Positions 5,501 to 61,243 of a stretch of 64,000 nt of DNA are shown here, piece after piece. The stretch comes from Tamarix chinensis. Its lineage: Eukaryota; Streptophyta; Magnoliopsida; Caryophyllales; Tamaricaceae. The notes under the pieces were generated by a model, which was not told where the DNA came from, searched no databases, and saw only the letters and a list, made by a program, of their open reading frames with translations. How positions within the stretch are numbered: position 1 is the stretch's first letter; the number at the start of each line of letters is the position of its first letter. Both the position numbers and the translations under genes were made by a program. The stretch is from positions 98,472,132-98,536,131 of the forward strand of contig CM060174.1 in NCBI GenBank assembly GCA_030549775.1, written 5' to 3'.

Positions 5501-7894
5501 GCTCGTGGATTAACCTGATAATCAAGCCTGAATTGACCATTAATGCGGGGAGAAAATTCAGTTCGGAATTATTAGAGCAATTATATGACCTATATACTTA
5601 AAACAGAACAAATGATAATAAGATAGAGATCAAATGGCAACCTAGAAAATTCTCCCTTTAGATGTGCTCCCCCATGGACAATATTGTAGTGCTCAGTAAT
5701 CTGCACATTACCCCAGTGAGAGATTTCAATCTCACGCACCAACTTTTCTGCAACAGCAAACGGTTGATTGTCTTCAAAATGGAAAACTACAGGCGAATAC
5801 TCAAAAGGAGGTTGGTCTCTGTATGGGCCATATTTGATTTCAGAGCCATGCACTTTAGTGTTATCTAGTTTTGTGTAGGACTCAATCTTTGCATCAGGAA
5901 GTTTCACAGTCAGTGTCTGTGCCTTAACAGCATAACAAGAGAGATAATATCCAGTATCCTGAAACAAAACCAACTGGTAATCATCCTGCGTAATTTTCTC
6001 TGGAAATGGTTTGAGTACATGCGTCAAAACTGCCAATACTTCCAGATTCAAGCTTTCCCCCTTTGCCAGCTTCTTGAGTAGAGTTATAGAATAATACATC
6101 AAAGCCGGGGGCATTCCTTCCGGTTGGACAGATTGAACAGGGAGACTAACACCAGGACCTTTAGTCTTTCCTTTTCCTTCAATCTGTACTGCTGATATGT
6201 ACGCCAAATGTTTGGCCTGGTGATCAGGGAAGGCCAACAAAAAGTCTGAAACAGGACCATTTCCCTCATTTTCCACCTAGATTACACAGGAGTAAAAAGA
6301 TAAGAAACATTACATGAAACATAGTATCATTATTTTTTCGTAATTAATATAGTAATATTTATCCACAGTTGGTTGTATGTTGTTTAAGAGTTGCAAATTC
6401 TAAATGGTATGTGACAAGTAACAAAATCAAAGCATTTCCACAAAAACATTGTATACAAAGATTGTGCATGTTTTTTTTTTCTTTTTGGTAATCAGTGTAA
6501 ACAATACATAGTTTTCAATTTAAATTCACTATTTAAATTTGTGAATACATTTATCCTTACATGAACAGTAAATTTACTATATTTAAATTCCTCACATTAT
6601 AAACTACGATAATCTCATTCCAAGCATCGCACAAACGCTAAACTAGTTAAGGCTTAAAACTTCAGTAACCAAGAAAAACAATTAACTAAATTCAAAGCAA
6701 ATTTTGGAAAATGGCAATGAGTATTGAAAGTTGAAACAGGCGGACTCAATCCAGGACTATTCTAAGATATATGCGGAATGCTTCATTAACAAAGCAAACC
6801 AATTAACTACACTCAAAGCAAAGGTTTATGGCACAGGAAATGATTGCCAGCCAGTAACTTAGAGAAAAGATGAGCACTAATGCAGCAACCACATCCACCC
6901 TATGGCCAATATGACTTAAGTTGAAAGACTCTGCATGCGGAATACACACACGTGATAATATTGCTCCAAATTCCTATAGAGCAATCCATAAGAATGTGAC
7001 CAACATAATCATGCAGTCTAATAATCGAACATATTCTTGGGCAAGACTGAATCAAACTAATGAAAAAACTCTTTCAGAATCATTCATAACCATGAGGGAG
7101 AGAGGGAAAAACTTGTATATAAAAACAAGAGAAGAAAGTCATACCTTAAGAGTTGAGGTGATGCGCACAACTTGAGAAGTCAGATCGATCTGCCCAAATT
7201 ATCACGTTAAACACTATACAGCTCGGAAATACAACATCCGTAACAGATTCAGGATATCACTTGCACCGGTTCACTCTAACGTCATGCATTTAATCATGCT
7301 AGCGAGAAGTTCATAAATAAATAAAATCATAATAATAAAAAATTTCCTTGAAGCACCTCAAACTCAGACTGCAGCAACTTCATCAAAAATGGAAAAGAAT
7401 AACATAGAACGTAAGCAAGCAGTCGGTGCCAAACCAAATAAGAATCACGGATACAAATTCATTTGCGTAAAGCCTCAAGAAGTCCTCACTGTTCGTTAAA
7501 CCCTTGATATTTCAGGACTGATAGAGAAAGGTTCACGCGTTAACAAAAATACAGCAGCTGCTCTCAAGTTCAAAATCAATCAAAACATACAATCATCACT
7601 GATTTCTGTCTCAAAGTCGAAATTGCTGAAAAGGTGGCATTCAAATCAATCATTTAAAATTAGGTTACCTAAACGCATAAACGGAAGATACGATAACATT
7701 CCCACAACTTGGAATGATACCAAAACGAACAGATAGTTATGGAATCACCGGATTAAAGATGATGAGAATAGACAAAGCCTGAGACGTACCCGGCGCTCCG
7801 CCTTAGAAATTACTAGATCCCCAATCACGGGGGAGGCGAGAAGAGCATATGCAATGAGAAACAGCTTTAGATCTAAACCACGATTGAAACACAT
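2575..7894 (-). CDS. OST1: Ribophorin I, oligosaccharyltransferase subunit OST1 (complete, 10 exons)
   Basis: Subunit 1 of the ER oligosaccharyltransferase, the complex that transfers the preassembled glycan from dolichol diphosphate to Asn in nascent proteins. Minus-strand exons are 7790-7894, 7145-7189, 5642-6276, 5380-5527, 5039-5215, 4058-4126, 3833-3922, 3250-3408, 2935-3159 and 2575-2766. All introns are GT-AG, and the joined frame gives 614 codons plus a TAG stop, matching the usual plant length. Exon 1 encodes a signal peptide (hydrophobic residues about 11-25), then DLVISKAERR and, from exon 2, IDLTSQVVRITSTLK, the typical mature N-terminus. Exon 3 holds HGGAHLKGEFSR, exon 4 SVYYRDEIGNIS and exon 5 LFGGWKTFFTIGYGLPL, all hallmark luminal blocks. 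Exon 8 holds the single membrane span (about residues 437-456). The charged C-terminal tail is coiled-coil-like. No frameshift or stop is seen. It is the only intact host gene in the window, and a Helitron ends 240 bp upstream. Confidence 0.96.
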
Positions 7895-10715: not shown

Positions 10716-11039
10716 TGTAATCCCCCAAAATTTTAGAAAACCAATAATTTAATAAATAGTTTTTATTTAAAATAAATTAGCTTTTAAAATTATCTAATTT
10801 AATTAATTTATGGATTTTTGAGTATATAAATTTGGATGGGAATATTTAGTAAATTTAAAAGAGATATTTTGTTATTTTATCATGATATTTTTATTTAAAT
10901 AATTTTTCAAACTAATATTTTACTAACCTTATCCTTTTTAAATTAATATATTAGATTATAATGAATTAAATTATTAAATTAAATAATTTATCAATAATAT
11001 TATATTTTATAATTTTATAAATTAATTTATTTTATTTTC

Positions 11040-12200
11040 CCTATTTTCTCATTTTCCTTTTTGCCCTTTTTCCCTTTTTCCTCTTTCTTCTTTTTCTTCC
11101 CCCGGGCCGCCGCACCCAGGCCAGCCCTTCTCAACCCCCCCCGGTGCAGTGGGCCTCGGCCCACCTCTCCCTCTCTTCCTCCATCTCTCGCACAAGCTTG
11201 ACTCGGTTGGCTCCCCCTTTTTTTTCTTTTCCCCCTGGACCGGCCGACCTGCCTTCTTTCCCTTCCCCCGACCAACCGCCATAACCTTCCTTTCTTCTTT
11301 CTTCTTCTCCCAAGGCGTCGACAGCAGCCCAACCACCTGCAGCCACCGCCCGACCACCTGCGACTGCCGCCGCCTGCCACCGCACCTGGCCCCTGCTACT
11401 CCCTCTCTCTACCCCGTCCTCTTCTCCCCTATTTCGAGCCAAGCTACCCCTGCACCCTATCCATGTCTGCAATTCTCTCCTCCCCGTCGCCACCCTCTCC
11501 CTGCCACCCTATGCACTGCCATCAACCCCCTTACCCTTCCTCTTCTTTTTCTTCTCCCCTTCGTCCATTTTTCTGCCCCATTTTCGAGCCATCTTCCTTC
11601 CCCCGAGCTCCATCTTCTCTCCTTCCTTCTTCCCCATTTTTTTTCCTGTTTTCTCTCCACGCCGCTGCCAACCGCCGTTCCAGCCACCGCACCCAACCCC
11701 TGCGCCGCCTCCTACCACCACCCCCTACTGCCCTACACCCCCACGCCGCCCCTTTGAGCCCTACACTTCCTCCCTTCTCCACCCCTTCTTTTTTCTTCCC
11801 ATTTTCCCCCTTATCGCCAAGCCACCTACAACCGCCACGTTCGCTGCCGTCCGGCCACCTCTTCCGCCACCCAACCCACCGTTCGACACCCTGCAACCCC
11901 CTCTACCCCCGCCATTCATTAGTTGGCCGAAAACAGCCCCCTTAACCCTCCATTTTTCCCTCCTCTTTTCCTTCCTTCTCAGCCTCGCCCAGCTTGACAA
12001 CCATCTTTGTCGCCTCGCCGCCGCCCTATGCCGCCGTGAAACCACCCTTAGCCACCACCTACACCCCCTCTTCACTCCTGCATCCTTACCTTGCCTCCAA
12101 TCCTCCCCCACCTACCTTATTTTCTAGCCTAAAGACCCTAACCCGAAAATAACAAATCTTGCCTCCTTTACCCCCCCTCTTCGAGACTCCCCTTTTTATT
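11040..12200 (+). other. C-rich, GC-rich island in LTR A
   Basis: A strongly pyrimidine-biased stretch (CCT, CCC, TTC and GCC runs) in otherwise AT-rich DNA. It has long open frames on both strands, the longest 11149-11757. These encode only low-complexity Pro, Ser and Leu. The corresponding frame in copy B (34242-34859) shares only short blocks, as expected of a skewed non-coding region. It may be the LTR regulatory or leader segment. I see no gene. Confidence 0.6.
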
Positions 12201-12689
12201 TGGCATGCAGCTCATGCTGCATGAGCTGCTGCATGATTTAGTATTTTAATGCAAAATTCTTAAGGTATAATAGTATTTTAAGTTAACTGTTTTATTAATT
12301 GAATTTTATAAAGTTTTATGCTTGGATTCTTATTTCTAACATAATAATGATGGATATTATTTTTAGGTGTTGAGTTGCTAACTAAAGCTTGAATCTTTAA
12401 CTGGGATACCGGTAAGATTTGATAATTTGCGGGATTAAGGTAATCGTTAAACCTCCCTTAAATGTATGGAAACGTATGCTAGCAAATTAGGAATTTTATT
12501 ATGATTTTATGCATGTTATGTGATGCCTAGCATGATATATAGATGGTTGTTATATTGTTTGATGAGAAAAAGGGAAAAGCATGATAGCATTTGTGTCATG
12601 TGTAGGTATGATAATTAAGGAAGGAGTTGATTATTGATGAAAATATTAAATGCTTGTCTATGATGTATTATGTTGCTAATGCATGCGTA

Positions 12690-13815
12690 TTATTATTGTC
12701 TAAGGGTATTGTGGTAATTATATAAGTTAGGGGTATGATTGTAATTTTATGAGAAAAGAAAAAGATGATAAATTTTCAAGTAAAGGGGCATTATGGTAAT
12801 TTTGGAGGAAGAGAGGCAAAATTGTAATTTCATACGTAAGTGGCAATATGGTAATTTTATAAGTAAATAACAGTATAGTAATTTTACAAGTGAATGGCGA
12901 AATGGTAATTACATAAGTAAGGGGTATTATGGTAATTTTGGAAGTAAAAGAGTAATATGGTAATTCGGAAAAGAAGGGCAAAATGGTAATTTTGTAAGGG
13001 AAGATAAAGATGGTAATTTTGGATGTAAAAGGGTAAACTAGTAATTTGTAAAGTAAAAAGGAGGGTTATGGTAATTTTAAAAGTAAAAGGGTATTGTGGT
13101 AATTTTGTAAATAAAAGGGTATTATGGTAATTTGGGAGTAAGGGGTAACCTGGTAATTATGATAAGACGAAAGATAATTTAGTAATTAAATTATGATTAT
13201 AGAAGGGTAATTGGATAAGTGTGAATGTATGGTACTAGAGAAGGGTAATTAGGTAAATTAACTAACTAAAGGGCATTACGGTAATTTTAAATAATGGAGA
13301 AGGGTAATATAGTAATTATAAGAATGGAGAAGGGTAAATTAACAATCGTAACTATGAATAAGGTTAAAAGGGTATTTATAATAATTGGAAAAAGATAAAA
13401 TGGCAATTATAATAATTGAGGTGTAAAATGGTAATAAAGGAGAAGGGCAATTTGGTAATATATCCAACAAAAGGGTGCAATATGGTAATTTAACCAACTA
13501 AAGGGTAAGTTAGTAATTATGTAACCTACTAAAGGGGCAAATTAGTAATCATGATAGCGATAATGGGTAATTTATCCAACTCAAGGGCAAGTTGTTGATT
13601 GTAATAAAAGAAAAGGGCAAATTGGTAACCAAACCAACCAAATGGGAGATATGTTAAGTGTAGCAATTATGAGGGGTGAATGGTGACCTAAAAGTGTAGG
13701 AGGTAAATTGATAACCTAAATTGGATAAGGGGTAATTTGGTAATTATGCAACCTAAAGGGCAATAGGGTAATTTGTTAATAAGGAGTGGATGACTTGGCA
13801 ATTACATAAGTAAAG
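12690..13815 (+). repeat. Degenerate GGTAATTTT minisatellite in LTR A
   Basis: Dozens of imperfect tandem units, roughly 25-32 bases long, built on ATGGTAATTTTGTAAGTAAA and AAAGGGGTAATATGG. Unit length and sequence drift strongly. The same array occurs at the matching place in LTR B (35650-37229, continued at 42236-42345), so it belongs to the LTR family. Confidence 0.8.
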
Positions 13816-14458
13816 GGGTAAATAAGTGATTTGTACCTAACTTGTTGTTATGATTGTGGAACTTTATAATATGATTTAAATAATGTTGATTAGCCAAGTA
13901 AGAGTATTTGATAATTAGCATGGCCTTAATGGTTTCTCTATGATAGCTTGGATAATCATTTGAATAAGAAACGACTAATGATATCTGAACAATAGAAAGT
14001 GAATAAGTATCTGATTATTGTGCTCTTTCGTGATCACCTTTAATTAATACACTAATACTTAAGTGAAAGACCTCGAGATCGGGAATGGTGACTCTTTAGG
14101 GGTCGCTACCCTAAAGACGTGGTTTAGTCCACGATTATTCTGGTATTTGCTGGTGTGCCTTTGTGCCCCAGCCAGGCCCTACATCTTACTCTTTCTAGCT
14201 CTACGGACCTAGTTAGGGGTATGCATACTTATGGATTAGGTGTCCTTGTCGGTAGGGTACTAAGTTAGCTTTATGCACCAGTACGACCAAGGTACCTTTG
14301 CGTCCTTGGGTTCGTGGTTGATGGGTACTGAGTAGCTTGTATGCACCGGTACGACCAATGTACCTTTGTGTCCCGGGTTCTTGATCTCCCATTCGAGGAA
14401 ACAAATGGATTTGTTGTGCTGATTAATGAAAGGAAAGACACTAAATATAAAAGTGGAA

Positions 14459-14602
14459 TATTGATGAGCCGGGCCCAGTTGACTTATGATATTGAGTACC
14501 GATCCACCGGATATAATAGTGGCTCAGGAGCGTTTTGCCCTGGATGACGATTATACGTATTCCGATCCACCGGCTAAAATAGTGGGGGTCCCGAGCTCAA
14601 TA
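14459..14602 (+). repeat. Stem module in LTR A with two CCACCGGnTAtAATAGTGG units
   Basis: Two copies of the 19-base quasi-palindrome (within 14501-14522 and 14564-14585) are separated by CTCAGG-AGCGTTTTGC-CCTGG, itself a potential small hairpin. They are bracketed by partly complementary arms: TATTGA with GAGCC at 14459-14470, and GAGCTCAATA at 14593-14602. The arms pair less well here than in elements C, D and E. Confidence 0.6.
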
Positions 14603-14847
14603 AAACCAGTTATGTATGTGAATAAAATTATAGGAAAATACTAATCACTTATAGTGGAACAATGGCTTAAGGCCTGATTGTTTTGAGTTTGCATTATGAC
14701 ATGGCTTAAGACCATAAGTACCGATTGTTCGTAATGATATATTGATATGCTATGTGAATGTTAATTATGTGAATGTTATATATGTATGTAGCTTGTTTTA
14801 TGTGTTGCATTGCGGGCCTGCTTTTAAGTGGGACTTTAAAGGATTAC

Positions 14848-14865
14848 TTAGTACCGTAGTACTGA
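14848..14865 (+). repeat. Conserved 3' hairpin of LTR A
   Basis: TTAGTAC-CGTA-GTACTGA: seven pairs with one T.G pair that is G.U-compatible in sense RNA. It lies 420 bases before the LTR 3' end. Counterparts with different but still complementary arms occur in elements B, C, D and E. Confidence 0.65.
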
Positions 14866-15285
14866 AGGGTTCTATTCATGGGGCCCCTGCCTATTCAATG
14901 GGCAGTGTCCCTTGCAGGTCTTTTCAGGTGCTACTCAAGTAGGAAACGTGAAAGAGAGTAAGGTCTCATCCGAAACTACTAGGGTTTTTCTCTCTCTCTT
15001 TGAAATTTCTGGTTTTAAATGTGTATGTTGATACTGTAACCACCATTGGTGGATTTTATTCTTGTAAACATTTGATACGCTACTCTGATTTAAGTAGGTT
15101 GAATTTCTTGCACATGTATTTCATTTTCCTTAGCATTAGCACTTAGTACTGGAATGATATGAGTGAACTGGTCTGGTACTAAGTGTGGTGGTGATGCTCC
15201 CAAAATTCACGGTTTATTAATTTGCTTCCGCTAATTCCATTTTAATTAATGAAATTTTTCAGTAGTGAATTTTGGGGGTGTTACA

Positions 15286-33621: not shown

Positions 33622-33949
33622 TGTAATCCCCCAAAATTTTAGAAAACCAATAATTTATTAAATAGCTTTTATTTGAAATAAATTAGCTTTTAAAATTATT
33701 TAATTTAATTAATTTATGGATTTTTGATATATAAATTTGGACGGGAATATTTAGTAAATTAAAATAGATATTTTGTTATTTTATAATGCTATTTTTATTT
33801 AAATAATTTTTCAAATTAATATTTTACTAACTTTATCCTTTTTAAACTAATATATTAGATTATAATGAATTAAATTATTAAATTAAATAATTTATCAAGA
33901 ATATTACATTTTATGATTTTATAAATTAATTTATTTTATTTCCCCTATT

Positions 33950-35080
33950 TTCTCATTTTCCTTTTCCTTTTTCTTTTCCTTCTCCTTTTTTCTTTTTTCT
34001 TCTCTTTTCTTTTTTCTCCTCCTTGGGCCGCCAGCACCGGCCTGCTTCCCCCCCTGCGCGCTGGGCCACAGGCCCTTTCCCCCTTCTCATCCTGGCACAC
34101 TCGCCTAGCACAGCCCAAACGTCCCTCTTTTTTTTCCCAGACTAGACCGGCTAGCTCCCCTTTTTTCCTGCGTCGATCCAGCCGCTTGCACCTCCCCTCC
34201 CTTTCTTTCTTCTTCCACGTCCGACCAACACCTCCTCTGCCATGGTCGAGCACGCCAGCCACCTACAACTGCCGCCACCTGCAACCACCACCTACCTCCC
34301 TGCTACTCCTCCTCTCTCCCCCGTCATTTTATTTCCTATTTCGAGCCAAACTAGCTCCTGGACCACAGCTCGTATGCCCTCTCCCTTTCCTTCTTCTTCC
34401 CTCCCTTTCCCCTACCAACCGACAGCCCTGCCATCTGCGTCCTCTCGCCGGCCAGCCACCTGCCCCCTCTCTTCTCCCTCTTCTTTTTCTTCATCTCTCC
34501 AGCCTCCTTTCTCCCCCATTTTTTATCCCTCTTCTCCTTTCCCCGAGCCTCTTCTCTCCTTTCTCCTCCCTCCCATTTTCCCCCTAGTTCTTGCTCGCCG
34601 CCGCCAACCGCCGCTCCAACCACCGTCCCAATCCCCTACGCCGCCTTCTGCCATCACCTCCTACTACCCTGCACCATCACCCCACCCCCTCGAGCCCCTG
34701 CACTTCCTCCCTTCTCCCCCTCTTCTTTTCCTCCCCACTTTTCTCCCTTATCACCAAGCCACCTGCAACCGTCCCGTTCGCCGCCTTCAGGCCACTTCTG
34801 CCGCCACCCAAACCACCATTCGACACCCTGCAACCCCCTCTACCACCACCATGCCTTAGTTGGTTGAAAACAGCCCTTGCACCCCTCCATTTTTCCCTCC
34901 TCTTTTCCTTCCTTCTCAGCCTCTCCACCTCGACCCACCTCGGCAGCCATCTTCGCTGCCCTGTTGCAGCAGCCCTATGCCGCCGGGAAACCATCCTTAG
35001 CCACTACCTACACCCCCTCTTCACTCCTGCACCATTCCCCTGCCTTGAAACCTCCCCCATCTACCTCCTTTTCTAGCCTA
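33950..35080 (+). other. C-rich, GC-rich island in LTR B
   Basis: The counterpart of 11040-12200 in LTR A, with the same pyrimidine bias and low-complexity frames on both strands. No gene is supported. Confidence 0.6.
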
Positions 35081-35649
35081 AAGTCACTAAACCGAGCCAT
35101 CTCTCGTCTCTTCTATCTCACCCCTTTCGACCCTTTTATTCACCCTTATTTTGCATGTGGCACACGTTGTTCATGCAGCGTGAGCTCCTACTTGATTTTG
35201 GAATTTATTATCTAAATTTTGAGGTATATTAATAATTAATTAAAGTGTATTATTATTAAATAAATTTGTTTTTATAAAGTTTTATCCTTTAATTTCTTAC
35301 TTCTAACCTAATAGTTATTGATATTATTTTTAGGTGTTGAGTTGCTAATTAATCTTTGAATCTTTAACTGGGATACCAGTAAGGTTCGATTTTTGTGGGA
35401 TTAAGGTAATCGTTAATCCTCACTTAAATACGTGGAAAAACGTATGCTAGCACATTAGGGATTTTAGTATGATTTTATGCATGTTTTGGGTGCCTAGCAT
35501 GATATATAGATGGTTGTTTATATTGATTGATAAAAAAGAAAAGTATGATAGCCTTTGTGCCATGTGTAGGTATGATAATTAAGGAAGGAGTTTGATTATT
35601 GATGCAAATGTTAAATGCTTGTCTATGATGTATTATGTTGCTAATGCAT

Positions 35650-37229
35650 GGATAATATTATTGTCTAAGGGTATTTTAGTAATATGCTTATGTAAGTATG
35701 TGATCTAATATATGTAGTTGCTAATGAGTATTATGTTGAATAATGACAAGTTGGTGGAGTTAAATGATAAGAATGAAGTACTAATATTAGTATTTTATGT
35801 AGTGGTGGCAAATTCATAAAAGTGGTGTAATAAAGGGGTTAAGTGGAAATTTTATAAGTGAAAAGGGTAAATTGGAAATTTTGTAGTAAAGGGGCATTTT
35901 GGTAATTTTAAAAGAAAGGGGTAAAACGGTGATTTTATAAGCAAAAGGGGTATTTTGGTAATTTCAAAAGAAAGGGGTGAAATGATAGTTTTATAAGTAA
36001 AATGATAAAATTGTCAGTTGTGAGAAAGAATGGTATTATGGTAATTTTTGAGGCAAAGGAACAATATGGTAAATTTATGATTAAATGACAAAATGATAAT
36101 TTTATAAGTAAAGGGGTATTACGGTAATTTTTGGAGAAAAGGGTAAGTGGTAATTTTTGGAGTCAAAAGGCAATATAGTAATTTTATAAGTAAGTGGTAA
36201 GAATGGTAATTTTGGAAGTAGGGGTAAAATAGTAATTTTGGATGAAGGAGGGCATTAGGGTAATTTTTCAAGTAAAGGGGCATTATGGTAATTTTGGAGG
36301 TAGAGGGGCAAAATAGTAATTTCATAAGTAAATGGTAATATGGCAATTTTATGAGTGAATGGCGAAATGGTAACTTTATAAGGGGTATTATGGTAATTTT
36401 GGAGTAAATGGGCAATATGGTAATTTTGGAAAAGAAGGGCAAAATGGTAATTTCGTAAGGAAAGATAAAAATGGTAATTTTGGATGTAAAAGGGGTAAAA
36501 TAGTAATTTGTAAAGTAAAAGGGGTGTTATGGTAATTTTATAAGTAAAAGGGTATTGTGGTAATTTTGTAAATAAAAGGATATTATAGTAATTTGGGAGT
36601 AAGGGGTAGAAGAGTAATTTTGTAAATAAAAGGATATTATGGTAAACTTGGGAGTAAGGGGTAACTTGGTAATTATGATAACGACGAAGGATAATTTGGT
36701 AATTAAATTATGATTATAGAAGGGCAATTGGATAACTATGATACTAGAGAAGGGTAATTTGGTAAATTAACCAATAAAAGGGCATCATGGTAATTTTAAT
36801 AATGGAGAAGAGCAATATAGTAATTATAAGAATGGAGAAGGGTAAATTAATAATTATAAATATGGAGAATGGTAAATTGGTAATTATAATTATGAAGGAG
36901 GGTAAATTAATAATTGTAATTATGAAGAAGGATAATTTGGGATTTATAATAAATGAAAAGGGAAAAATGGCAATTACAATAATTGAGAGGGGTAAAATGG
37001 TAATTATGATAAAGGAGAAGGGCAATCTGGTAATTTATCCAACAAAAGGGTAAATTGGTAATTATTTAACCAACTAAAGGGGTAAAATAGTAATCATGAT
37101 AATGAAGGAGGGTAATTTAGTAATTATAACAAAGGGGAAAGGCAATTTGGTAATCTAACCAACCAAAAAGGGAATTATGTTAAGGATAACAATTATGAAG
37201 GGTGAATTGTGATCTAGAAAGCGTAGAAG
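35650..37229 (+). repeat. GGTAATTTT minisatellite in LTR B
   Basis: Many drifting units around ATGGTAATTTTGTAAGTAAA and GGAGAAGGGTAAATT. The array is interrupted by element C at 37235 and resumes at 42236-42345. Open frames on both strands here (for example 36744-37053) come from the repeat and are not genes. Confidence 0.8.
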
Positions 37230-38099
37230 ATAACTGTAATACCCCGTATTTTTAAAAATCCAGATTTATTAAGTTTAATGATTTTATTAGCGTAATTTGA
37301 GGTCAACAATTAATTATTTTAATTTCGATTCTTTTTATAGATTTATCGACGATTTCGAACCCCTAATTGAATGTAATTAATCATTGTCGTTGCGAACCAT
37401 TCTAGACAAATTCGTTCACGACAATGATTTTATTATATTCTTATGGATTTGATTCTCGGTTAAAAATATGTATTTTCGTTGTTTCTCATACTGTTATTTG
37501 TATTTTTAATATTTTAGATTTTTTTTCGATTATAACTTCGTCATGTGTTAACGGTGTATTTTGAGGTTATATTTCGTTGACAAAATATATTATTTAAATT
37601 ATAGAATTTCATTTTAAATAGTTAAATTTATTTTAATAATTTTATCCGTAGAAAATATTTCCGACTTTAAATTTATTCGTTTCGGTAATCGTTAATATTT
37701 TCGGAAAGTTTAAATTAAAAAGATTTCGGAGTTTATTTATGAAATTCTTTCTGGAATTAATTCCCTTTCGTTTTATGCTTTTTGGTTTACGGAAAACCGA
37801 TTTCGGAAATTATTTAAATTAGTCTTGGTTTATTCGAATTTGACTTAAATATTTTAGTATATGTTTTTAAATCATTTTTCGGGGTCTTATAATGTACTTT
37901 CGTAAATAATATAAATTTTTATGTTCGTTGGTTAATCCTTTCGAAAATGTTTCTGAAATTCTGTATATAGTTTTATTTATTTATTTTAAGTGTTCGGATC
38001 GTTTCGAAATAATTTTTATTTAATAAATTTTAGATAAAATCTTCCAATATTAATTTTTAAGTTTTTAATATTTTATTTGATACTTGTTTTCGTAAAAAA

Positions 38100-38470
38100 A
38101 AAAAAACCAACCGGCCCAACCGAACCCCCCCCTCTTCTTTTTCTTTCTCTCTTCCCCACCCCGACCCCTCTCCTGTGCGCCCCTGTTCTGCACCCGAAGC
38201 CCTAGCCGACCTCCCTTACCTCCTCCCTTACCCCTCCTTGCTTCGCCCCGCCGGCCAAGCTTCGACCACCATCGACCCGCACAGGCTGACCGCCGCAGCA
38301 GCAACAACTAAAGCCGCGCGACAGCAGCCAACCCAGCAGAGCAACAGCGGGCGGCGACAGCAGCAGCAGCAGGCCACGCAGCTCGCGCCACCGCCCGGCC
38401 ACCGTCGACACCTCCCGACCACCGGCGAGCCATCCCTATTCCCTGACAAAGCTTCTCTGGCATTTTCTTG
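38100..38470 (+). other. GC-rich island in LTR C
   Basis: C-rich with GCAGCAACAGC-like runs. Open frames on both strands (such as 38175-38471) are low-complexity and show no family features. No gene is supported. Confidence 0.5.
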
Positions 38471-40878
38471 ACCCGATTGTGTTGATTTCATTTGGTATAA
38501 ATTTCCGAAAAACCCTAACCCTTGATTTGATTAATTGAGTGTGATTAGCTTATAAAAAGCTAAATTGATTGTTTGTTTATGTATGTATATGCTGTAAGAT
38601 TGATTTGGATAGGTTAATTGTGTGGTTGTGTTGAGATTTTGGAAAAATTGGATTTTTAGCCGGGTTATGCCCAAATTTTTCGGATCCGCTCGTTTTTGCG
38701 ATTTCGGACAAATTGATTATACAATATGTTTTAAAATGTATCCAATTTCATTTTGGAACTGTCAATTTGAGAAATTTATGCAGGTCTTATCGGAATTTGA
38801 TTCCTAGGTCAAATTTCGGGTATAATGAAATTGGGTCATATAATTGAGCTATTCCACTCAATTGATTTTATAATATTGTTTAAAATGTATTTAATTTTAT
38901 ATTAGAAGTGTTGATTTGGGAAAATTGTGCGTAATTGACCGGAATTGGATTTTTAGGTCAAAATTCCCGCGGATTTAAATTGGTTTGGGTAATCGGGTTA
39001 TTTTATTCAATTAACTATATAAATTACATTCGAATATGTTTAATTACATTTCCGGACCGTCAATTTATATGTTTTGCCAAGAATTGATCGGATTTACGTT
39101 CCGGGCCCAGAAACCCTAATTGGGCTAAATTGTGTATTTCTTTTACTAGTTTTGAGCAATTGATTATTTGATATGTTATAAAATGTGTTTAATTGCATTT
39201 CTAAACATTCAATTTGATTAAATTTATAGAATTTTAACGAGTTGTGTTTTCGGGCCTAAAACCCTAAATTTCAAGTTATATTGTTGTTTTTCTAAAATTG
39301 AATGCATAGAAATAGTTGAAATGGTATTAATTTCTTTCTAATACCTTTAATTTGAACTAATTAAATGGAATTACTTGAGTTTGTGTTATGGGCTTTGAAA
39401 CCCTAATTTTCGGGGATGATTTTATAAAATTGATTTTTGCTATGTGTATTTTATCTAATCGAATTCTATCTTTGGGTTTTAAATCATTTAAATTCTGTTT
39501 TAACCTAATCGGGTTGGATTTGGTTCTATGTAAATGGTTAGATTACCTATTTAGTTGTAAAACCTAATAAATAAGTTATTTTCGATAAATTAACTTATGA
39601 TCGATTATTCCTTCTCGGGCTTTCCAAATTAAGTTGAAATGTCCCGAGTGATATTTATATTAATCCGTTTTGATTTAGTTTTAACCTTAAATCTTAATAA
39701 AGCTATGCTTTTAATTTCTAAGTTTTGGACACGTTTTCTAAGAGAAATCATTTGTGTCGTTTGTGTGTATTTAATTAGAGTATGTGAATTATTGATTGAT
39801 AGGATAGTTTCTAATTTAGTTTTGATTTCTATCGGGTCTAGGAAAGCTTTCTCGTGGACCCACGAACTAGGGATCCCTCTCCCTCTCATTTCGCTTAGCT
39901 AGCTTCGGATCCAGGTAAGTCTCTACTTACCTCTACTTGTGGGTGTTTAGTAAGGACGAAGCTAATGGCCTTGTGCTATGTGGGACATGGATGTGTTGAA
40001 TGTTGTGTATGCCATGCTATGCCATGTATTATATGATTTGTGTATAACTTGCCTTATGTGTAGCGCAGCTTGGAGATTGAGGTATGTTGTATGTGCTCCC
40101 ATGATATGAGCATGACATGTATATGTATGATGTTTATGATGTATTATATTATGGCCCTCTAGGACATGCATATTAGGATAAATGGTAATATGAGTTGGGA
40201 ACCATCATGGGAGTCTTGAAGTTTGTATGATGGTATTAATGTTCTAGGGCGGCACTAGTGGTTCGCATGGTGGTATTAATGTTTGTATGATGGTATTAGG
40301 GTCTACATGGTGGAATTAGGGTTTTGCATGGGAGTTAACGATTGTAGGGGATTTAGGGTTGTATGAAAAGTTTGAGAGGTTGTGTGGGATGTGTAACGTT
40401 TGCGTGGGAGCAAAATTTACGTATGATAGGTTGATTGGGATGTAAGGAAGGTAATGCAAGTATGATTTGGGTGTTTAACAGTTTTGGACGGAGAGTAGTA
40501 TGTGGAGTATCATAAGGGTATGGAGGAGACAGAATTAGGGTTTGGAGTGATTAACTCTGGGTCGTTGTGATTAAGTAGGGTTGGAGTAGCTAATTGTAAT
40601 TTGTCGAGGATAATTAAGGTTTGGGATGGCTAAGTATGGTTGTTATGGTAAAATAGGGTTAAGAGTGGTTAACCACGGTTTGGTGTGGACAATTAGGGTT
40701 GGTTATGGTTGCTTAGAGTTGTTTGGTGTTATCATGTGTATTTATTGACTAAAGTGTAGTTATGAATGTGGGATTTTATTTGTTGTGATGTGTACAGTAT
40801 AAAGAGAATGATTTATGCATGTCAAGGGAGATGTGTGATTTAATAAGACATTGATAAGACATCACGTAAAGCGAAAGA

Positions 40879-41478
40879 TGTCGAGCCGAGCCTGTGATCC
40901 GGTCCACCGGCTATAATAGTGGATCAGAGGCATTTTGCCCTGTGCGTTTATTTTCCGATCCACCGGCTATAATAGTGGGGGATCTCGTGCTCGACAAACC
41001 AAACGTATAAGTTAATCCATGGGAAAGATACTAAGTACTTAAAGCGAAACACCATGTGAGTCGGGGCTGTGATCCGGTCCACCGGCTATAATAGTGGATC
41101 AGAGGTGTTTTGCCCTGTGCGTTTATTTTCTGGTCCACCGGCTATAATAGTGGATCAGAGGCGTTCTGCCCTGTGCGTATATCTTCCGGTCCACCGGCTA
41201 TAATAGTGGGGCTCCCGCGCTCACATGGACTAATAAAGAATGCGTTGAATGAATCTGAATGAAGTAATCCACAGGAAAAATACTAAGTACTTACAACGAA
41301 ACACTATGTAAGTCGGGGCTGTGATCCGGTCCACCGGCTATAATAGTGGATCAGAGGCGTTTTGCCCTGTGCGTTTATTTTCCGATCCACCGGCTATAAT
41401 AGTGGATCAGAGGCGTTCTGCCCTGTGCGTTTACTTTCCGGTCCACCGGCTATAATAGTGGGGCTCCAGTACTTACAT
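40879..41478 (+). repeat. Three stem modules of LTR C with CCACCGGCTATAATAGTGG arrays
   Basis: Module 1: arms TGTCGAGC (40879-40886) and GCTCGACA (40989-40996). Module 2: CCATGTGAG (41052-41060) and CTCACATGG (41220-41228). Module 3: ATGTAAG (41306-41312) and CTTACAT (41472-41478). Each arm pair is fully complementary although the three pairs differ. Between the arms are two or three copies of the 19-base unit CCACCGGCTATAATAGTGG, separated by CAGAGGCGTTTTGCCCTG, which can itself fold. Each module follows a leader like ACTAAGTACTTAAAGCGAAA. Confidence 0.85.
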
Positions 41479-41794
41479 GGATTATTAAAGAATATGTGTG
41501 GAATGAATATACTATTAATGAGAATAAAGAATAAGTCTAATTGGACTATGACCAGCTTCTACTATATGTATTACCACATGCTGTTTATGTGCATAATGAG
41601 TCACTTATTATTTCGGTTATACCACGCTTATATGTTAAATGGGATGTTGCATATGTTTTATATGTTACTATGCGTGTATGGCAAGATTCATGCTGTGGGT
41701 TGTGAGTATGTATGATATTGTATTAACGTATTGTACTATAATTTAATATGCACTTGATGATACCTCTCCTACAAGGTAGGTTAGCGAGACTTAC

Positions 41795-41815
41795 TCAGTA
41801 TTGGACCCATACTGA
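41795..41815 (+). repeat. Conserved 3' hairpin of LTR C
   Basis: TCAGTAT-TGGACCC-ATACTGA: seven perfect pairs. Compared with LTR B, a C-G pair has become T-A on both sides of the stem. Confidence 0.8.
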
Positions 41816-42978
41816 TACTACACTGGTTGAATGAGTCCTGTGATGATTCACCGATGGTGGGGAGCAGACCTTTGATGCAGGTTGATCGGTTACTGTTTTG
41901 GGGTGGAAGGCTTGACTTGAGTGAGTAGGCGATCCGGATAATTATCCTTCGGGATTTGTTAGTTTACTTGTATTCATCCATTGGAAGTTGCAAGTATTGC
42001 ATTTAAATTTCCAAGGATTTTGTAATTGACTTTTAATTTCTCGTAACGCTGTTATGCTTTAAAATTCGAATTTATTTGTTTGACAGGTTTTAGCCTTGCA
42101 TCTAACATGAGATAGATGGTTGACATTTATCTTGTGTTAGATGTGGCGGTAACATTTCCCAAATTCGCTCCTAGCTTCCGCTTTAATCTTTCAAAAAAAA
42201 ATTTCAGGAGTGAAATTTGGGGGTGTTACAATAACTTTGTAACCTAAACCGAGGAAGGGGTAATTTAGTAATTATGTGACAAGGAGGGTAATGGAGTAAA
42301 TTGTCAAGTAAGGAAGGAATACTTAGCAATTATATGAGTAATTTGTACCTAACATGTCGTTGTGATTGTGGAACATTATAATATGATTCAAATAATGCGG
42401 ATTAGCCAAGTAAGAGTATTTGATAATTAGTATGGCCTTAATGGTTTCTCTGTGATAGCTTGGATAACCGTCTGAATAAGAAACGACTAATGATATCGGA
42501 ACGATTGAAAGTGGATAAGTATATGATTATTGTGCCTTTTGTGATCACTTTAATTAAGACACTAATACTTAAAGTGAAAGACCTCGAGATCAACAATGGT
42601 GGCTCTTTAGGGGTCGCTATCCTAAAGACGTGGTTTAGTCCACGATTATTTTGGTATTTGCTAGTGTGCCTTTGTGCCCCAGCCAGGCCCTATATCTTAC
42701 TCTATCTAGCTCTACGGACCTAGTTAGGGGGTATGCATACTTATGGATTAGGTGTCCTTGTTGATAGGATACTGAGTAGCTTTATGCACCAGTACAACCA
42801 AGGTACCTTTGCATTCCTGGGTTCGTGGTTGAAGGGTACTGAGTAACTTATATGCATTGGTACGACCGGTGTACCTTTGTGTCCTGGGTTCTTGATCTCC
42901 CGTCCGAGGAAAATAAATACAATTGTTGTGCTGATTAAAGAAAGGGAAAACACTAATTACAAAAGTGAAAGATTAAAG

Positions 42979-43456
42979 AGCCAGGTCCAGTTGACTTATG
43001 ATATTGAGTACCGATCCACCGGTTATAATAGTGGCCCAGGAGCATGTTGCCCTGGCAAGTGATTATGAGTATCGATCCACCGGATATAATAGTGGCCCAG
43101 GAGCGTGTTGCCCTGGCAAGTGATTATGAGTACCGATCCACCGGATATAATAGTGGCCTAAGAACGTGTTGCCCTAGATGATGATATATATATTCCGGTC
43201 CACCGGCAAAAACAGTGGGGGTCCCGAGCTCAATAAAACCAGTTATGTATGTGAATAAAGTTATGGAAAAATACTAATCACTTATAGTGGAACACCATGT
43301 GAGTCGGGGCCAAACCGGTCCACTAGCGAATAATAGTGGCCAGGAGCATCTTGCCCTGGAGACCGATCCACCGGCATATAATAGTGGTTAGGTGTGTTAT
43401 GCCCTATAAATGACCGATCCACCGGCTATAATAATGGGGTTCTCACACTCACATGG
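42979..43456 (+). repeat. Two stem modules of LTR B
   Basis: Module 1 (42979-43232) has four CCACCGG-like units with CCCAGG...CCCTGG spacers and weak outer arms (GAGCC and GAGCTC). Module 2 has arms CCATGTGAG (43295-43303) and CTCACATGG (43448-43456) around three units. Unit sequences are more variable than in C. Confidence 0.7.
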
Positions 43457-43639
43457 ATATAAAATATGAGATTGATTGAATGATGATGGAATAATGGCTT
43501 AAGGCCCGAATGTATCGATCGTGAATTATAACTTGTTATATGTGTGATTGTTATGTATGCACCTCTGATTTCATATGCATATAGCTTGCATTATGTGTTG
43601 CATTGTGGGCCTGTTTTTAAGTGTGGTATAAAGGGTTAC

Positions 43640-43657
43640 TCAGTACCGTAGTACTGA
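43640..43657 (+). repeat. Conserved 3' hairpin of LTR B
   Basis: TCAGTAC-CGTA-GTACTGA: seven perfect pairs with a four-base loop, 422 bases before the LTR 3' end. Confidence 0.8.
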
Positions 43658-44561
43658 AGGGATTCCCTTTGTAGGGCCCCTTCCTTTTCAATGGGCAGTG
43701 CCCTTACAGGTCTTTTCAGGTGCTACTCAAGTAGGCTACGGAAAAGAGAGTAAGGAATTATCCGGTACCGTTAGGGCTATTCTCTTTCTCTTTTAAATTC
43801 TTGGTTTTAATGCTAATGTTTTTAAAGTCACCATCATTGGTAGATGTTATTCTTGTAAATGATTTGATACGCTACTCTGATTTAAGTATGTTGAATTTCT
43901 TGCAAATTGTATTTCATTTTCCTTTAGCATTAGCACTTAGTATTGGAACGGTATGAGTGAACCGGTCTGGTACTAAGTGTGGCGGTAATATCCCCAATAT
44001 TCACAATTTTATAACTTGCTTCCGCTAACTCATTCAAATAAAACAAAATTTTTCATTAGTGAATTTTGGGGGTGTTACAGTTACTACTCAAGATGCTTTA
44101 TAATTTATATTGTTGGCAGCATTTTTATAATCTTTGAACTACCTAATGTATGCCACTCTCTTTTATGGCTTTGTTGTTGGAAGCTAACATAATAGGAAAA
44201 TAGAAAACAAATTATTAAATCATGCATGAGTTTTCATCATTTATGCTAGCAAAAGAAATAAAAAAACAAATGGTTAAAACAAAAAACAAATGCATGGGTT
44301 ATGATCATTTATGCAGGCAAAAGAAACAAAAAGGACAAAATAATGCTTATTAATAATTAAAGGGCATAAATGTGTACTAATATATTTTATAGCCTAGGTT
44401 AACCTCAATCCAAACAACGTTAGACATATTCACCTAGGTTAACCCAATAATCAGCCAACCAAAATTTTTTAATATTCACCTCAATTCACCTAACCTAGGT
44501 TAATTTATATAATTTAATATTTATTAACCTAACCTCATTTAACCTCCATCCAAACATGATA

Positions 44562-52868: not shown

Positions 52869-52887
52869 TCAGTACGCTTCGTACTGA
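52869..52887 (-). repeat. Conserved 3' hairpin of LTR D
   Basis: TCAGTACG-3 nt loop-CGTACTGA: eight perfect pairs, one longer than in LTR B, with a three-base loop. Confidence 0.8.
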
Positions 52888-53054
52888 GTAAGGTAACAGA
52901 CGAGCTAAGGCCAGCACATAGGACATATAGTACAAGTTCAGCACATAGACAACATACAACAACATGCAGGAAAGGGGTGGATGTTTCCTCGGTACTTTGT
53001 CCTTTTATTCTCATTAATGATAATAAGTCCATTCCACACATTTCTTCAATAACA

Positions 53055-53455
53055 CATGTGAGCGCGGGAGCCCCACTATTATAGCCGGTGGACCGGTAGA
53101 TATCGCACAGGGCAGAACGCCTCTGATCCACTATTATAGCCGGTGGACCGAAAATAAACGCACAGGGCAAAACGTCTCTGATCCACTATTATAGCTGGTG
53201 GACCGGATCGCAGCCCCGACTCACATGGTGTTTCGCTTTAAGTACTTAGTATCTTTCCTATGGGTTAACTTATTCGTTTGGTTTGTCGAGCGCGAGATCC
53301 CCCACTATTATAGCCGGTGGACCGGAAGATATCGCACAGGGCAGAACGCCTCTGATCCACTATTATAGCCGATGGACCGGAAATAAACGCACAGGGCAAA
53401 ACGCCTCTGATCCACTATTATAGCCGGTGGACCGGATCACAGGCTCGGCTCGACA
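53055..53455 (-). repeat. Two stem modules of LTR D
   Basis: The first module has arms CATGTGAG (53055-53062) and CTCACATG (53220-53227). The second has TGTCGAGC (53284-53291) and GCTCGACA (53448-53455). Each contains three 19-base units, read here as CCACTATTATAGCCGGTGG, with CAGGGCAnAACGCCTCTG spacers. Confidence 0.85.
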
Positions 53456-57776: not shown

Positions 57777-58234
57777 TAATCTATAACACCCTGATTTTTA
57801 CTAATGAAAATTTTCATTTTACAATGGAAGCGTATAAGTAAAATATTAGGGGTTACCACTATAATTGACATAAGTTTAGTTTTCCCAACCATCCTTACAT
57901 CAATCGTAAGGCTAAAATCATTCATAGTAAAACAAGGAAAGTAGAAATGGAAGAAACATTTATAATACAATATGGATTTGGATATTAACTCTGAGTTACA
58001 ATAAATAAAATACAAAGTAAGAATATCATGGATCTAGAGTTCAAAAAGGCATCCAGGTAAATACATCAAATGGATATCATTAATCTTCACCCAACACCCA
58101 ATACAGATAAAGATCACTCATCCCCACATAGTTCATCATAAGTAGTATAGTCATCTAGAGGATCTTTCGAGAGCTGCACACACGAATCGGTATCTTTTAC
58201 TCCTGGGAATTAGCAACAACCATAAAAAGGACGG

Positions 58235-58253
58235 TCGGTATGCTATGTACCAA
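58235..58253 (-). repeat. Conserved 3' hairpin of LTR E
   Basis: In element sense TTGGTA-CATAGCA-TACCGA: six pairs, one of them T.G (G.U in RNA). On the opposite strand that pair would be a C.A mismatch. Confidence 0.6.
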
Positions 58254-58408
58254 GAAAGGGAGCAATACTAACGAATCAAGGATACAAATAACATATGCAT
58301 TCTTAATAGATGATAAGTACATATTCAAACCAATGATACATCTCATAAGGTAAACACTAATCCAAGCCTCTTTATTAAATATAACCATTTTCATTCTTTT
58401 ATATGCAT

Positions 58409-58796
58409 TGAGTTCAGGAACCCCCACCATTATTAAACCAGTGGAACGGTCTAAATCAGATTCTTAGGGACAACACACTTGAGCTACTATTATTATCTGG
58501 TAGAACGGATATGAAAATATCACCTTCTCGGGGCAAAACGCTCCCAAACCACTATTATCTCTAGTGGAACGAATATAAAAACAACACCATGATCCTAACT
58601 CACGTACTCTTCCACTTTAAATCATTAGTGTATTATTCATAGGTTATACTGTTATATTTTCATTCATGATGAGTAGGGTCCCCACTATTCTTAATCCAGT
58701 GGAATGGATTAAAATACCTTCTCAAAGCAAAACGGTCCCGAGCCACTATTATCTCCAGTGGAATGAATATATAAAACAACACCTTCGTCCTACTCA
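58409..58796 (-). repeat. Two diverged stem modules of LTR E
   Basis: Module 1 arms: TGAGTTCAGG (58409-58418) and CCTAACTCA (58594-58602), nine pairs with one bulged base. Module 2 arms: TGAGTAGG (58670-58677) and CCTACTCA (58789-58796), eight pairs. The inner units read CCACTATTATCTCCAGTGG, so both their sequence and the arm sequences differ from A-D while pairing is kept. Confidence 0.75.
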
Positions 58797-61243
58797 CATG
58801 CTCTTTAGCTTTAAATGATTGGTATATTATTCATGATTGATTCACAGGCATTAAACACATTGAGGCATATAAGCATATAAGGTAAGTCAAGATCCTTAAT
58901 CTCTTTAAACCCTAGTTTCACACTCCTAGCATCATTCTCTCATACTGATCATTCAACCATAAATTATAATATATCATTCTCAAATATCATCTTGATTATC
59001 ATACTCACAATTCATGGTCTAACTCCCACATCATACACATACAATAATAATCTTATCCCAAAGTGCTACTCACATAATTATCGAAATCCTAATTTCACAA
59101 GTAGTCTTAATTCTTCCCATAAGACTCTTATGATTCCCAAATTCAATATGCATTCTTATAATGCCAATATTAGAAACATATATATAATTGTGGATTAACT
59201 CTAGGGTTTTACACATGGGATAATAAGATTATCATTTCATGTCATTATGCCCTAATTAGACCATTATCTTATTTTGAAGAACCTAAGACAAGCAATAATC
59301 CTTCCAAAATATTTCTTAAGATATCATTATCATATTTTGATCCACCAAACACATTACCATACCAAAGTCTCCTTATTAATCCATAACGACCAAAATGCCC
59401 TTAAGTATAACCAATATCCTTTATTTTATAAAATCATGTACCTTTCACAACCATTATTTTTCCAAATCCACCATTTAAATTTATTCCTCATAAATATTCT
59501 TATTCCCATATATCATATCTTATTTAGCCTATATTTTATACCATACAATATATTTCCCACAAATACATCATGAATATATCAAAACCATATCCATACCTCT
59601 TGCCCATTCTTACTTTCTTTCAAAACATATATTCTATATAATCACAATATAACATCAATAACATACATTAAATCATATAGCAACAATATCATGGAAATTC
59701 ACATAACCATATAAGAAAATAACACAAAAATCCTAAAACATCGATTAGTATCCTTACCAACTAGGACACCGAACTCTAAGCACATAAATCCTAGACCTCC
59801 TCCTTTGAGATCACCGGAATATCACCTATGAAAAATAACATAATACATGATTAGGTTTGAAGAGTATAACCAAGGAAAAAGTTAAGGTAAAAAAGGGTAA
59901 AAATGAAAATAACCAGAGTCAAATGGAAGCTTGAGTTGTGTAGATGTGTGGTGGAATGTAGGGTGGAGATATCGTAAAATTTTAATAGTGCTTTGATAAG
60001 GTTTGGGGGTGAAAAAGAGGGTGCATAACCGAAATGGGGAGTTACACGGGCGTGCTGCAGCTAGTGCGCCCCCAAGTCGTGAGTTGGAAGCGTGCACGAC
60101 CAGGCTATATGAAGAGGCACGCTCGTGTTCAATCTCTAGCAGAACAGACTTAATGTGAAGAGATACACAAGGGCATATAACAGGCTATGAGATGGTTGTG
60201 AGAAAGATGCACGAGGAGGCTATGCTAGATTGCATGGGTGTGCGATAGTAAAAATTAGTGTTGCACGACTGTGCTTGCGGCTATGCACAGGTCACGTGTC
60301 TTATAAAAATGAAATGAACGCAAGGGAAAGAGAGAGAAAAATGGCAGCAAGGGAAGGATGGGGTGACCTTAATGGTCGGTCTACCAATCGATGGACGGTG
60401 TGTGGCAGAACACAGTGGTGATGGTGGTGAAAATGGTGTTTTAATCATGCAAAATAGGGCATGACCGCATGGGAAAAAGAAAATAAGAAGAAGAAGAAAT
60501 GAAAGGGAGCTTGGGTATGCTATTTTGGATGGAGTGTGGGTAAGAAATGACACAAATAAAAGATTAAGGAAGGAGAGTGAAGTAGTGCATGTGTGTAAGG
60601 GAAGTGCGAATGGTGACAAAAAATGTAGAGGGAGGTTTGCAAACGGGGAAGAAAAATATAGAGGGGGTTTAGGTTGAGCATGAGGGATAACAAGGAGGTG
60701 ATGGTTGTGTGTTTTAGGATGAAGTTACAGAGGGTGTAGCAAGAGATGATGATGGTGTGTGTGAACATGTTGCGTGAAAATGAAAAATGGCAGGGGATGT
60801 GTGTGCGTGCAAGTTTGGCAGCTTGAGAAGAAGAAAAGGGTGAGGGATGGTGAATGATGTTGGCTGCAAAGGTGTGATGGGAGATGGTTTGATAATGCAA
60901 GTTACAAGTTGCAAGTTGAGAAAGTCAAGTTTTACAGCACAAGTGACAGGAGAAAGGAGAAGAAAAAGAAAAGGAGAAAGAAAAAGAAAAAAGGGAATTT
61001 TTTAGATTAGCTTTAGATAATTTTAGATTAGCTAAAATAGGTAGGATTAGTGATAAATTTTAGCGAAATCAATATCGAGTTACAAAATATGGTTTATTCG
61101 GGTCAAATGTTCGGATTTAGTTAAGATTTTGGGATTAAGACATTTGGTTAAGGTTAAAATAATATTTTCTCAAGATTAGAATTAAATTAAGGTATTAATG
61201 ATACAACATTAGGCTAAGCAAAATTTTGGGGTATTACATAATC

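Follow-up and report, generated by a model that had tools for sequence, protein, structure and literature searches.

Multi-hairpin modules in long LTRs of Tamarix chinensis, perhaps an RNA element under selection for its fold

The window, that is, the whole 64-kb stretch that was analysed, is plant DNA of 33% GC that contains a ribophorin I-like exon and a set of LTRs of ~3.5-5.5 kb (Table 1). A search with the exon gave 129 matches, the best of the 120 listed being ~73% identical over most of the query. Three modules lie at 40879-41480 within the solo LTR C. As read directly from the sequence, each consists of a long complementary arm pair that encloses two or three exact copies of the alpha unit CCACCGGCTATAATAGTGG, with small hairpins between the copies. 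A sequence-only reading of this DNA had reported the three modules with their complementary arms and two or three copies of a 19-base unit in each. Both observations hold, the unit being exact in eight of eight places, and the arms are longer than had been described, continuing into an inner 4-bp helix with a one-base 3' bulge. Modules were present in every LTR of this kind that was found in the window, five in all (A, C, D, E, and F).

Table 1. Positions of the exon, the LTRs, and the modules and their parts in the window
Feature	Positions	Strand	Description
Ribophorin I-like exon	5590-6276	-	
LTR A, apparently solo	10716-15285	+	flanks GATTG/TATTG, imperfect duplication
LTR C, solo	37235-42230	+	TGTAATACCCC...GGGGTGTTACA; insertion into LTR D, flanked by the 5-base target duplication ATAAC; carries C1-C3
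LTR D, solo	33622-44079	+	interrupted by LTR C; target duplication GTTAC/GTTAC
LTR F, solo	57782-61238	-	target duplication GATTA/GATTA
Module A1 (type I), LTR A	14462-14602	+	TGAGC.CGGG / CCCG.a.GCTCA
Module C1 (type I), LTR C	40879-40996	+	2 alpha units, 1 beta hairpin; 12/12 arm pairs complementary
C1 arms	40879-40890 / 40984-40996	+	TGTCGAGC-CGAG / CTCG-t-GCTCGACA; read directly
Alpha unit CCACCGGCTATAATAGTGG, first of 8 exact	40904-40922	+	other starts 40960, 41079, 41135, 41191, 41331, 41387, 41443
First beta hairpin CAGAGGCATTTTGCCCTG	40925-40942	+	between alpha units
Lead-in ACTAAGTACTTAAAGCGAAACA	41030-41051	+	directly 5' of the C2 5' arm; similar ahead of several other modules
Module C2 (type II), LTR C	41052-41228	+	3 alpha units, 2 beta hairpins
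C2 arms	41052-41065 / 41214-41228	+	CCATGTGAG-T-CGGG / CCCG-c-G-CTCACATGG; read directly
Module C3 (type II), LTR C	41304-41480	+	tandem duplicate of C2, period 252; 3 alpha units
C3 arms	41304-41317 / 41466-41480	+	CTATGTAAG-T-CGGG / CCAG-t-A-CTTACATGG; read directly
Module D1 (type I), LTR D	42974-43235	+	4 alpha units; degraded arms; 46/300 random stretches pair equally well
Module D2 (type II), LTR D	43295-43456	+	CCATGTGAG.T / A.CTCACATGG
Module E1 (type I), LTR E	53284-53455	-	TGTCGAGC.CGAG / CTCG.c.GCTCGACA
Module E2 (type II), LTR E	53055-53228	-	CCATGTGAG.T.CGGG / CCCG.c.G.CTCACATG
Module F1, LTR F	58665-58800	-	CATG.TGAGTAGG / CCTACTCA.tCATG; other sequence, same plan; no bulge after inner helix
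Module F2, LTR F	58409-58602	-	TGAGTT.AGGA / TCCT.g.AACTCA; 49/300 random stretches pair equally well

The modules share a typical order of lead-in, 5' arm, two to eight alpha units (usually three), and 3' arm, with the alpha units joined by linkers that each start with a small hairpin (beta). Lead-ins like ACTAAGTACTTAAAGCGAAAGA were matched seven times in the window with three or fewer mismatches, against 0.02 expected. Among 28 hand-aligned modules, the arms formed 8 to 10 outer and 4 inner pairs, with a single-base 3' bulge between the two sets; the bulge, whose base was C, T, or A, was found in 27 of the 28, with F1 as the exception. Two module types recur in the order I then II, and LTR C carries one type I module followed by a duplicated type II. 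Type I arms are exemplified by TGTTGAGC.CGGA / TCCG.t.GCTCAACA, with inner helix variants that include CGGG/CCCG, CGGA/TCCG, CGAG/CTCG, CGAA/TTCG, and CAGA/TCTG, and type II arms by CCATGTGAG.T.CGGG / CCCG.c.A.CTCACATGG. Modules are placed two to three in a row, ~0.6-1.4 kb upstream of the LTR 3' end, and may lie upstream of the promoter.

Alpha units are kept in sequence, while beta hairpins are kept mainly in shape and are freer in sequence. In the alpha units, CCAC/GTGG was Watson-Crick in 385 of 412 cells (12 G.U, 5 A.C), and the palindrome CCGGTCCACCGG within them was exact in 27 of 103 and had one mismatch or none in at least 58. This palindrome, which resembles the repeated motifs of Sireviruses, overlaps the alpha unit at 40899-40910 and the matching part of the other units. 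The unit's centre, CTATAATAG, had been taken for a palindrome; it proved to be a dyad around a single A that cannot close as an RNA hairpin, and better symmetry is found in CCAC...GTGG and CCGG-TCCA-CCGG within the unit. The proposal that the separators can fold was borne out by 59 distinct stretches taken as linkers, a few of them wrongly, with a summed z of -8.6 in sense and -9.9 in antisense. The own halves of the beta hairpins (for example, AGGGTA-tgt-TACCCT, TAGGACA-tga-TGTCCTA, and CCAGG-agcgtgttgc-CCTGG) beat all but 11 of 20,000 re-pairings.

Comparison of LTR families C/E, A/D, and F revealed that what still aligns between them is chiefly the module block. At the LTR 3' end, ~150 bases are common to A, D, and E; C has ~30-70 of these, and none were reported for F. 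A primer site, TGGTATCAGAGC, followed three bases past the LTR in 2 of 21 other family C copies (L021, L013/L019). In the other 19 of the 21 copies with ends seen, no primer site follows the LTR, which makes it probable that many of them are dead solo LTRs. A reading of GTGGATCAGAGGCG as a tRNA-Met primer site was rejected, as other families differ (GTGGCCCAGGAGCG, GTGGTTAGGTG). The open frames of L021 and L035-L054 were checked for the superfamily, and no coding region was tied to module-bearing elements. Scans of viral contigs gave six single matches, which were taken as chance, and two further scans gave none and none.

Other folded or repeated features were seen in the same LTRs. A second hairpin lies ~73-108 bases before the LTR 3' end, at 42099-42112 with 42130-42143 in LTR C and at 43934-43947 with 43966-43979 in LTR D, and its arms vary by family (CATCTAACATGAGA/TCTTGTGTTAGATG in C, CACTTAGTATTGGA/TCTGGTACTAAGTG in D). 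Of 18 LTR-end-like sites, 14 had this hairpin as their top-scoring pairing, and windows over it had a sense z of -3.3 to -4.4 in C, E, and F but not in A and D. LTRs C, D, and E each carry a short hairpin, TTACTCAGTA...TACTGA, whose loop differs among them, ~440-530 bases upstream of their 3' ends (41791-41815, 43636-43657, and 52869-52891 on the minus strand). LTRs A and D also hold a larger module without alpha units (14071-14398 and 42582-42909), closed by CCTCG.AGATC / GATCT...CGAGG, in which AGATCGG/TTGATCT in A against AGATCAA/TTGATCT in D gives G.U against A-U. Imperfect tandem arrays of 27-30 bases, AAGGGTAATATGGTAATTT-like, occupy 12702-13158 in LTR A and 35833-37154 in LTR D.

The modules are abundant in the genome, which was sampled from a 1.32-Gb assembly of 28 contigs using 20 fixed-grid stretches of 10 kb on two chromosomes. 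Module arrays were present in 10 of the 20 stretches (L035, L039, L041, L043, L046, L048, L051, L052, L053, and L054). Genome-wide, exact arm patterns identified 6413 type I modules and, with an orientation anchor, 7521 type II modules. Among the places listed, same-strand modules were often 5.0-7.4 kb apart and sometimes three in a row (C1:4197307, 4203769, 4210230), a spacing that suggests elements with a short internal part and three-LTR arrays.

Comparison of family C copies showed how paired changes in the arms are kept. From module C2 to module C3, a G-C pair had been described as replaced by A-T on both sides, and this was confirmed, together with a change from T.G to T-A next to it. 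The C-G to T.G change described for a neighbouring pair is rare, the T.G being shared with one other copy only. The third-module arms read CCATGTAAG / CTTACATGG in 19 of the 21 other family C copies, 16 of which form all 14 pairs, and the 5' arm CTATGTAAG, as in the window, occurred in one; the second modules of the family C copies have CCATGTGAG / CTCACATGG. Since the double change is kept in 19 other copies, it is a fixed property of the third module and not decay of the window copy. The inner CCAG of C3 was found in the window copy alone (0 among the 21 others). In the type I modules of family C from outside the window (n = 20), 238 of 240 cells were Watson-Crick, and one copy had both sides of one pair changed.

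Across families, arms and linker hairpins change in sequence and mostly stay complementary. When the arms of the 10 window modules were re-paired at random, the summed duplex energy was -195.8 (sd, 11.8), compared with -237.1 for the modules' own arms, and 17 of 100,000 permutations were as good; the antisense test was equally strong (5 of 100,000). Composition-matched random stretches (300 per module) were paired for 28 modules, 10 from the window and 18 from elsewhere. For 17 of these, fewer than 1% of the stretches paired as well, C1 stood at 3 of 300, and for 5, more than 10% did (F2, L035-I, L052-I, D1, and L054-I). In hand-aligned type I arms, 161 of 180 pairs were formed against a shuffled mean of 146.4, with 18 double changes against 6.75, neither of which was reached in 5000 shuffles, and in type II arms 168 of 182 pairs were formed against 164.2 (50 of 5000), with 6 double changes against 1.77 (11 of 5000); this alignment was made to the proposed stem and leans towards it. 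Most of the double changes were transitions. The hand-aligned count of 28 modules omits F2, both L048 clusters, the L041 pieces past the first module, and a truncated L052 module at 1122. On MAFFT alignments, 86.6% of cells were paired in type I (10 sequences), with 10 double-change cells against 3.6 in shuffles (0 of 500), and 89.0% in type II (13 sequences), with 7 against 2.5 (1 of 500). Sliding the partner by one to three columns on these alignments lowered pairing from 87-89% to 16-54%. The shuffle tests treat copies as unrelated, and because few active elements gave rise to the copies, independence is overstated in all of these counts. Arms that differ and yet match suggest that a folded RNA copy, and not a DNA motif alone, was kept by selection.

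To separate RNA from DNA, mismatched states of the stem are informative, since sense RNA accepts U.G as a pair but not C.A. In palindromic arms, deamination is expected to give U.G as often as C.A, so that an excess of U.G favours selection on the sense RNA. Genome-wide, U.G exceeded C.A at both pairs counted. At the type I pair, in anchored orientation, there were 5269 U-A, 346 C-G, 776 U.G, and 22 C.A. At the type II pair there were 6931 U-A, 421 U.G, and 169 C.A with the anchor, and ~1104 C-G in a count that lacked the orientation anchor and allowed a slightly narrower spacing than was used for the rest. A reversed-pattern control gave zero in all eight pair counts. The odds ratio was ~107 for type I, with type II giving a value of the same order, although the copies are non-independent and the size of the excess is therefore not readable as a probability; the 776 U.G copies may come mainly from one or a few subfamilies. 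Among the places listed, four type II modules in the rare C.A state were clustered at C5:29.13-29.55 Mb, perhaps through local duplication. In the sequenced arms, a small hand-aligned sample had 22 G.U against 13 A.C (P = 0.18, not significant), and the MAFFT alignments had 21 against 20. RNA is favoured over cruciform DNA by the U.G/C.A asymmetry, and not by the sequenced arms or by folding energies.

The folding energies were modest. The 600 bases at 40879-41478 had a minimum free energy z of -2.20 on the plus strand and -2.60 on the minus strand, so that the check proposed in the sequence-only reading found them modestly unusual and the strands alike. Whole modules (n = 28) had a mean z of -1.87 in sense and -1.74 in antisense, only modestly beyond shuffles. 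Because sense and antisense energies are alike, they do not discriminate between the strands. In 150-base windows, covering the second half of D and the last 3 kb of E, the module zone had no clear extra stability over the rest of the LTR; the mean sense z in the module zone and elsewhere was -0.40 and -0.45 in C, -0.54 and -0.64 in D, -0.66 and -0.31 in E, -0.66 and -0.58 in F, and -0.44 and -0.40 in A. No Rfam match was obtained at the gathering threshold in the 64 kb, or at E values up to 1 in 40800-42230, and a hammerhead, 5S, or other known RNA family was rejected, there being no Rfam match to threshold in the window. The idea that selection or templating maintains a branched structure drew partial support from cross-family covariation and the two genome-wide pair tables, while energies did not divide cruciform from RNA.

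Collectively, we judge the chances to be slightly better than even that the modules form a multi-hairpin RNA element in the sense LTR transcript, with selection on the fold, perhaps for export or packaging. Each module would be one domain of structured RNA. A closing stem of ~12-17 bp with a one-base 3' bulge would enclose usually three alpha units, each a CCGGTCCACCGG-like palindrome plus ATAATAGTGG that is conserved in sequence, linked through two beta hairpins of conserved shape. Selection would have acted on the sense RNA, and the alpha repeats may offer a multivalent landing site for a protein, positioned by the stems. The most likely use would be as a cis-acting signal of the genomic RNA, either for nuclear export of unspliced RNA or for packaging, as the position and repetition of the modules and the example of animal transport elements suggest. 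A bolder version, in which the modules would be an undescribed multi-hairpin RNA family with thousands of copies in several LTR families of one plant, acting as the elements' own export or packaging signal while their arms drift via U.G and the fold and alpha units persist, seems to us possible but doubtful.

The main rival is a palindromic DNA enhancer array of the kind proposed for the LTR repeats of Sireviruses. The alpha unit would be a dyad bound by a host transcription factor and multiplied for greater promoter strength, with the arms and hairpins as by-products or a cruciform. The enhancer is the main rival because alpha contains CCGGTCCACCGG, close to the repeated motifs of Sireviruses; palindromes with a CGG-CCG core such as CGGTCGACCG appear in the relevant passages on these motifs (PMC2829016). 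Conservation of the alpha sequence, including the exact and near-exact copies of the palindrome, is as expected of a binding site. An enhancer nevertheless leaves unexplained why outer arms vary between families and remain complementary, why beta hairpins are kept in shape, and why U.G prevails over C.A, and we regard it as unlikely. Clearly less probable is templated repair, in which template switching during reverse transcription or DNA repair re-perfects the inverted repeats and the fold itself is unused. Such repair yields paired changes in one step and agrees with own arms that match well on both strands and with an antisense stability equal to that in sense. It should, however, have erased the one-base 3' bulge that persists in nearly all hand-aligned modules, and it predicts no preponderance of U.G, a state held by 776 of the 6413 type I modules and by 421 of the 7521 type II modules counted with the anchor.

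Decay at methylated sites on both sides of a stem was the caution attached to the original observation. In this explanation, shared ancestry together with C-to-T changes on both strands of old methylated copies would mimic compensation. The double changes in hand-aligned arms are mostly transitions, and copies without a primer site after the LTR are the rule in family C, as this explanation would have it. It fits poorly with a compensated C3 pair that is fixed in the family, most of those third modules having every pair formed, and with U.G and C.A counts (776 against 22 and 421 against 169) that contradict the equality expected in palindromic arms; we consider it highly improbable. A host-side role, in which folded transcripts feed the production of small RNAs that silence the elements, could coexist with a selected RNA fold and has been proposed for maize Sireviruses, where passages of one study describe an excess of small RNAs over palindrome-rich LTR regions with predicted structure (PMC10760457). 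Small RNAs may build up here too, by analogy with those maize palindromes. Such a role does not account for an element that maintains its fold as its sequence changes, and the same passages describe maize Ty3 elements as without an obvious peak of such structure (PMC10760457); as the explanation of the modules it is very unlikely. Insertion of a small inverted-repeat transposon was rejected, as it predicts conserved arms and a free interior and the reverse was seen.

Palindromic LTR repeats are already known from Sireviruses, and the new part here is the enclosing, covarying stem. Sirevirus LTRs are described, in the passages concerned, as carrying palindromic motifs with predicted hairpins, most of which have a CGG-CCG core, in many copies that number from 8 to 32 per element (PMC2829016; for maize, PMC10760457 and PMC5311732). 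The present palindrome likewise has a CGG-CCG core, and the eight alpha units of LTR C agree with the copy number of at least eight. In Sireviruses the single motif is the palindrome, whereas here a long covarying stem closes each module around a group of units, whose linker hairpins are conserved mainly in shape. The Sire consensus for the LTR 5' end is given in one such passage as TGTTRRN(3)TAA (PMC3601003); the LTRs here start TGTAATACCC instead, with TGTAATACCCC in C and F and TGTAATCCCCC in A and D. According to the section on their placement (PMC2829016), most Sirevirus motifs are concentrated within the LTR's upper half, at 200-400 bp from the start, whereas the modules begin ~3.6 kb into the 5.0-kb LTR C, in its last third. 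Both the LTR start and the repeat position are off, so the elements fall outside the Sireviruses on these two tests.

Other elements offer partial likenesses. LARDs have very long LTRs and many solo copies, and their folds are located in the central domain. Long LTRs are common to LARDs and the present elements, whereas the folds here lie inside the LTR and not in a central domain. LARDs (Sukkula) and other non-autonomous elements are described in the part consulted of one study as having conserved RNA folds without coding capacity (PMC7215508). In animals, the IAP RTE and the musD MTE are cis-acting RNA folds that export unspliced RNA, with assayed function, as summarised in passages of a 2025 review (PMC12786077). 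Compared by description, the modules would resemble these transport elements as a cis-acting fold, for which export is a candidate role. In retrozymes and Cassandra-type plant LTRs, a functional RNA is placed inside the LTR. The modules would be alike in this placement, while differing in that the window contains no hammerhead or 5S Rfam match.

A literature search returned no recognised description of these modules among the matches listed, with subscription journals mostly outside its scope. For plant LTR elements, the corresponding passages of the 2025 review report no direct study of RNA export so far (PMC12786077). With its thousands of variants found in nature, a covarying RNA domain would be a testable candidate for an RNA export signal, and the modules would help to separate the DNA binding site from the RNA fold for palindromic LTR repeats.
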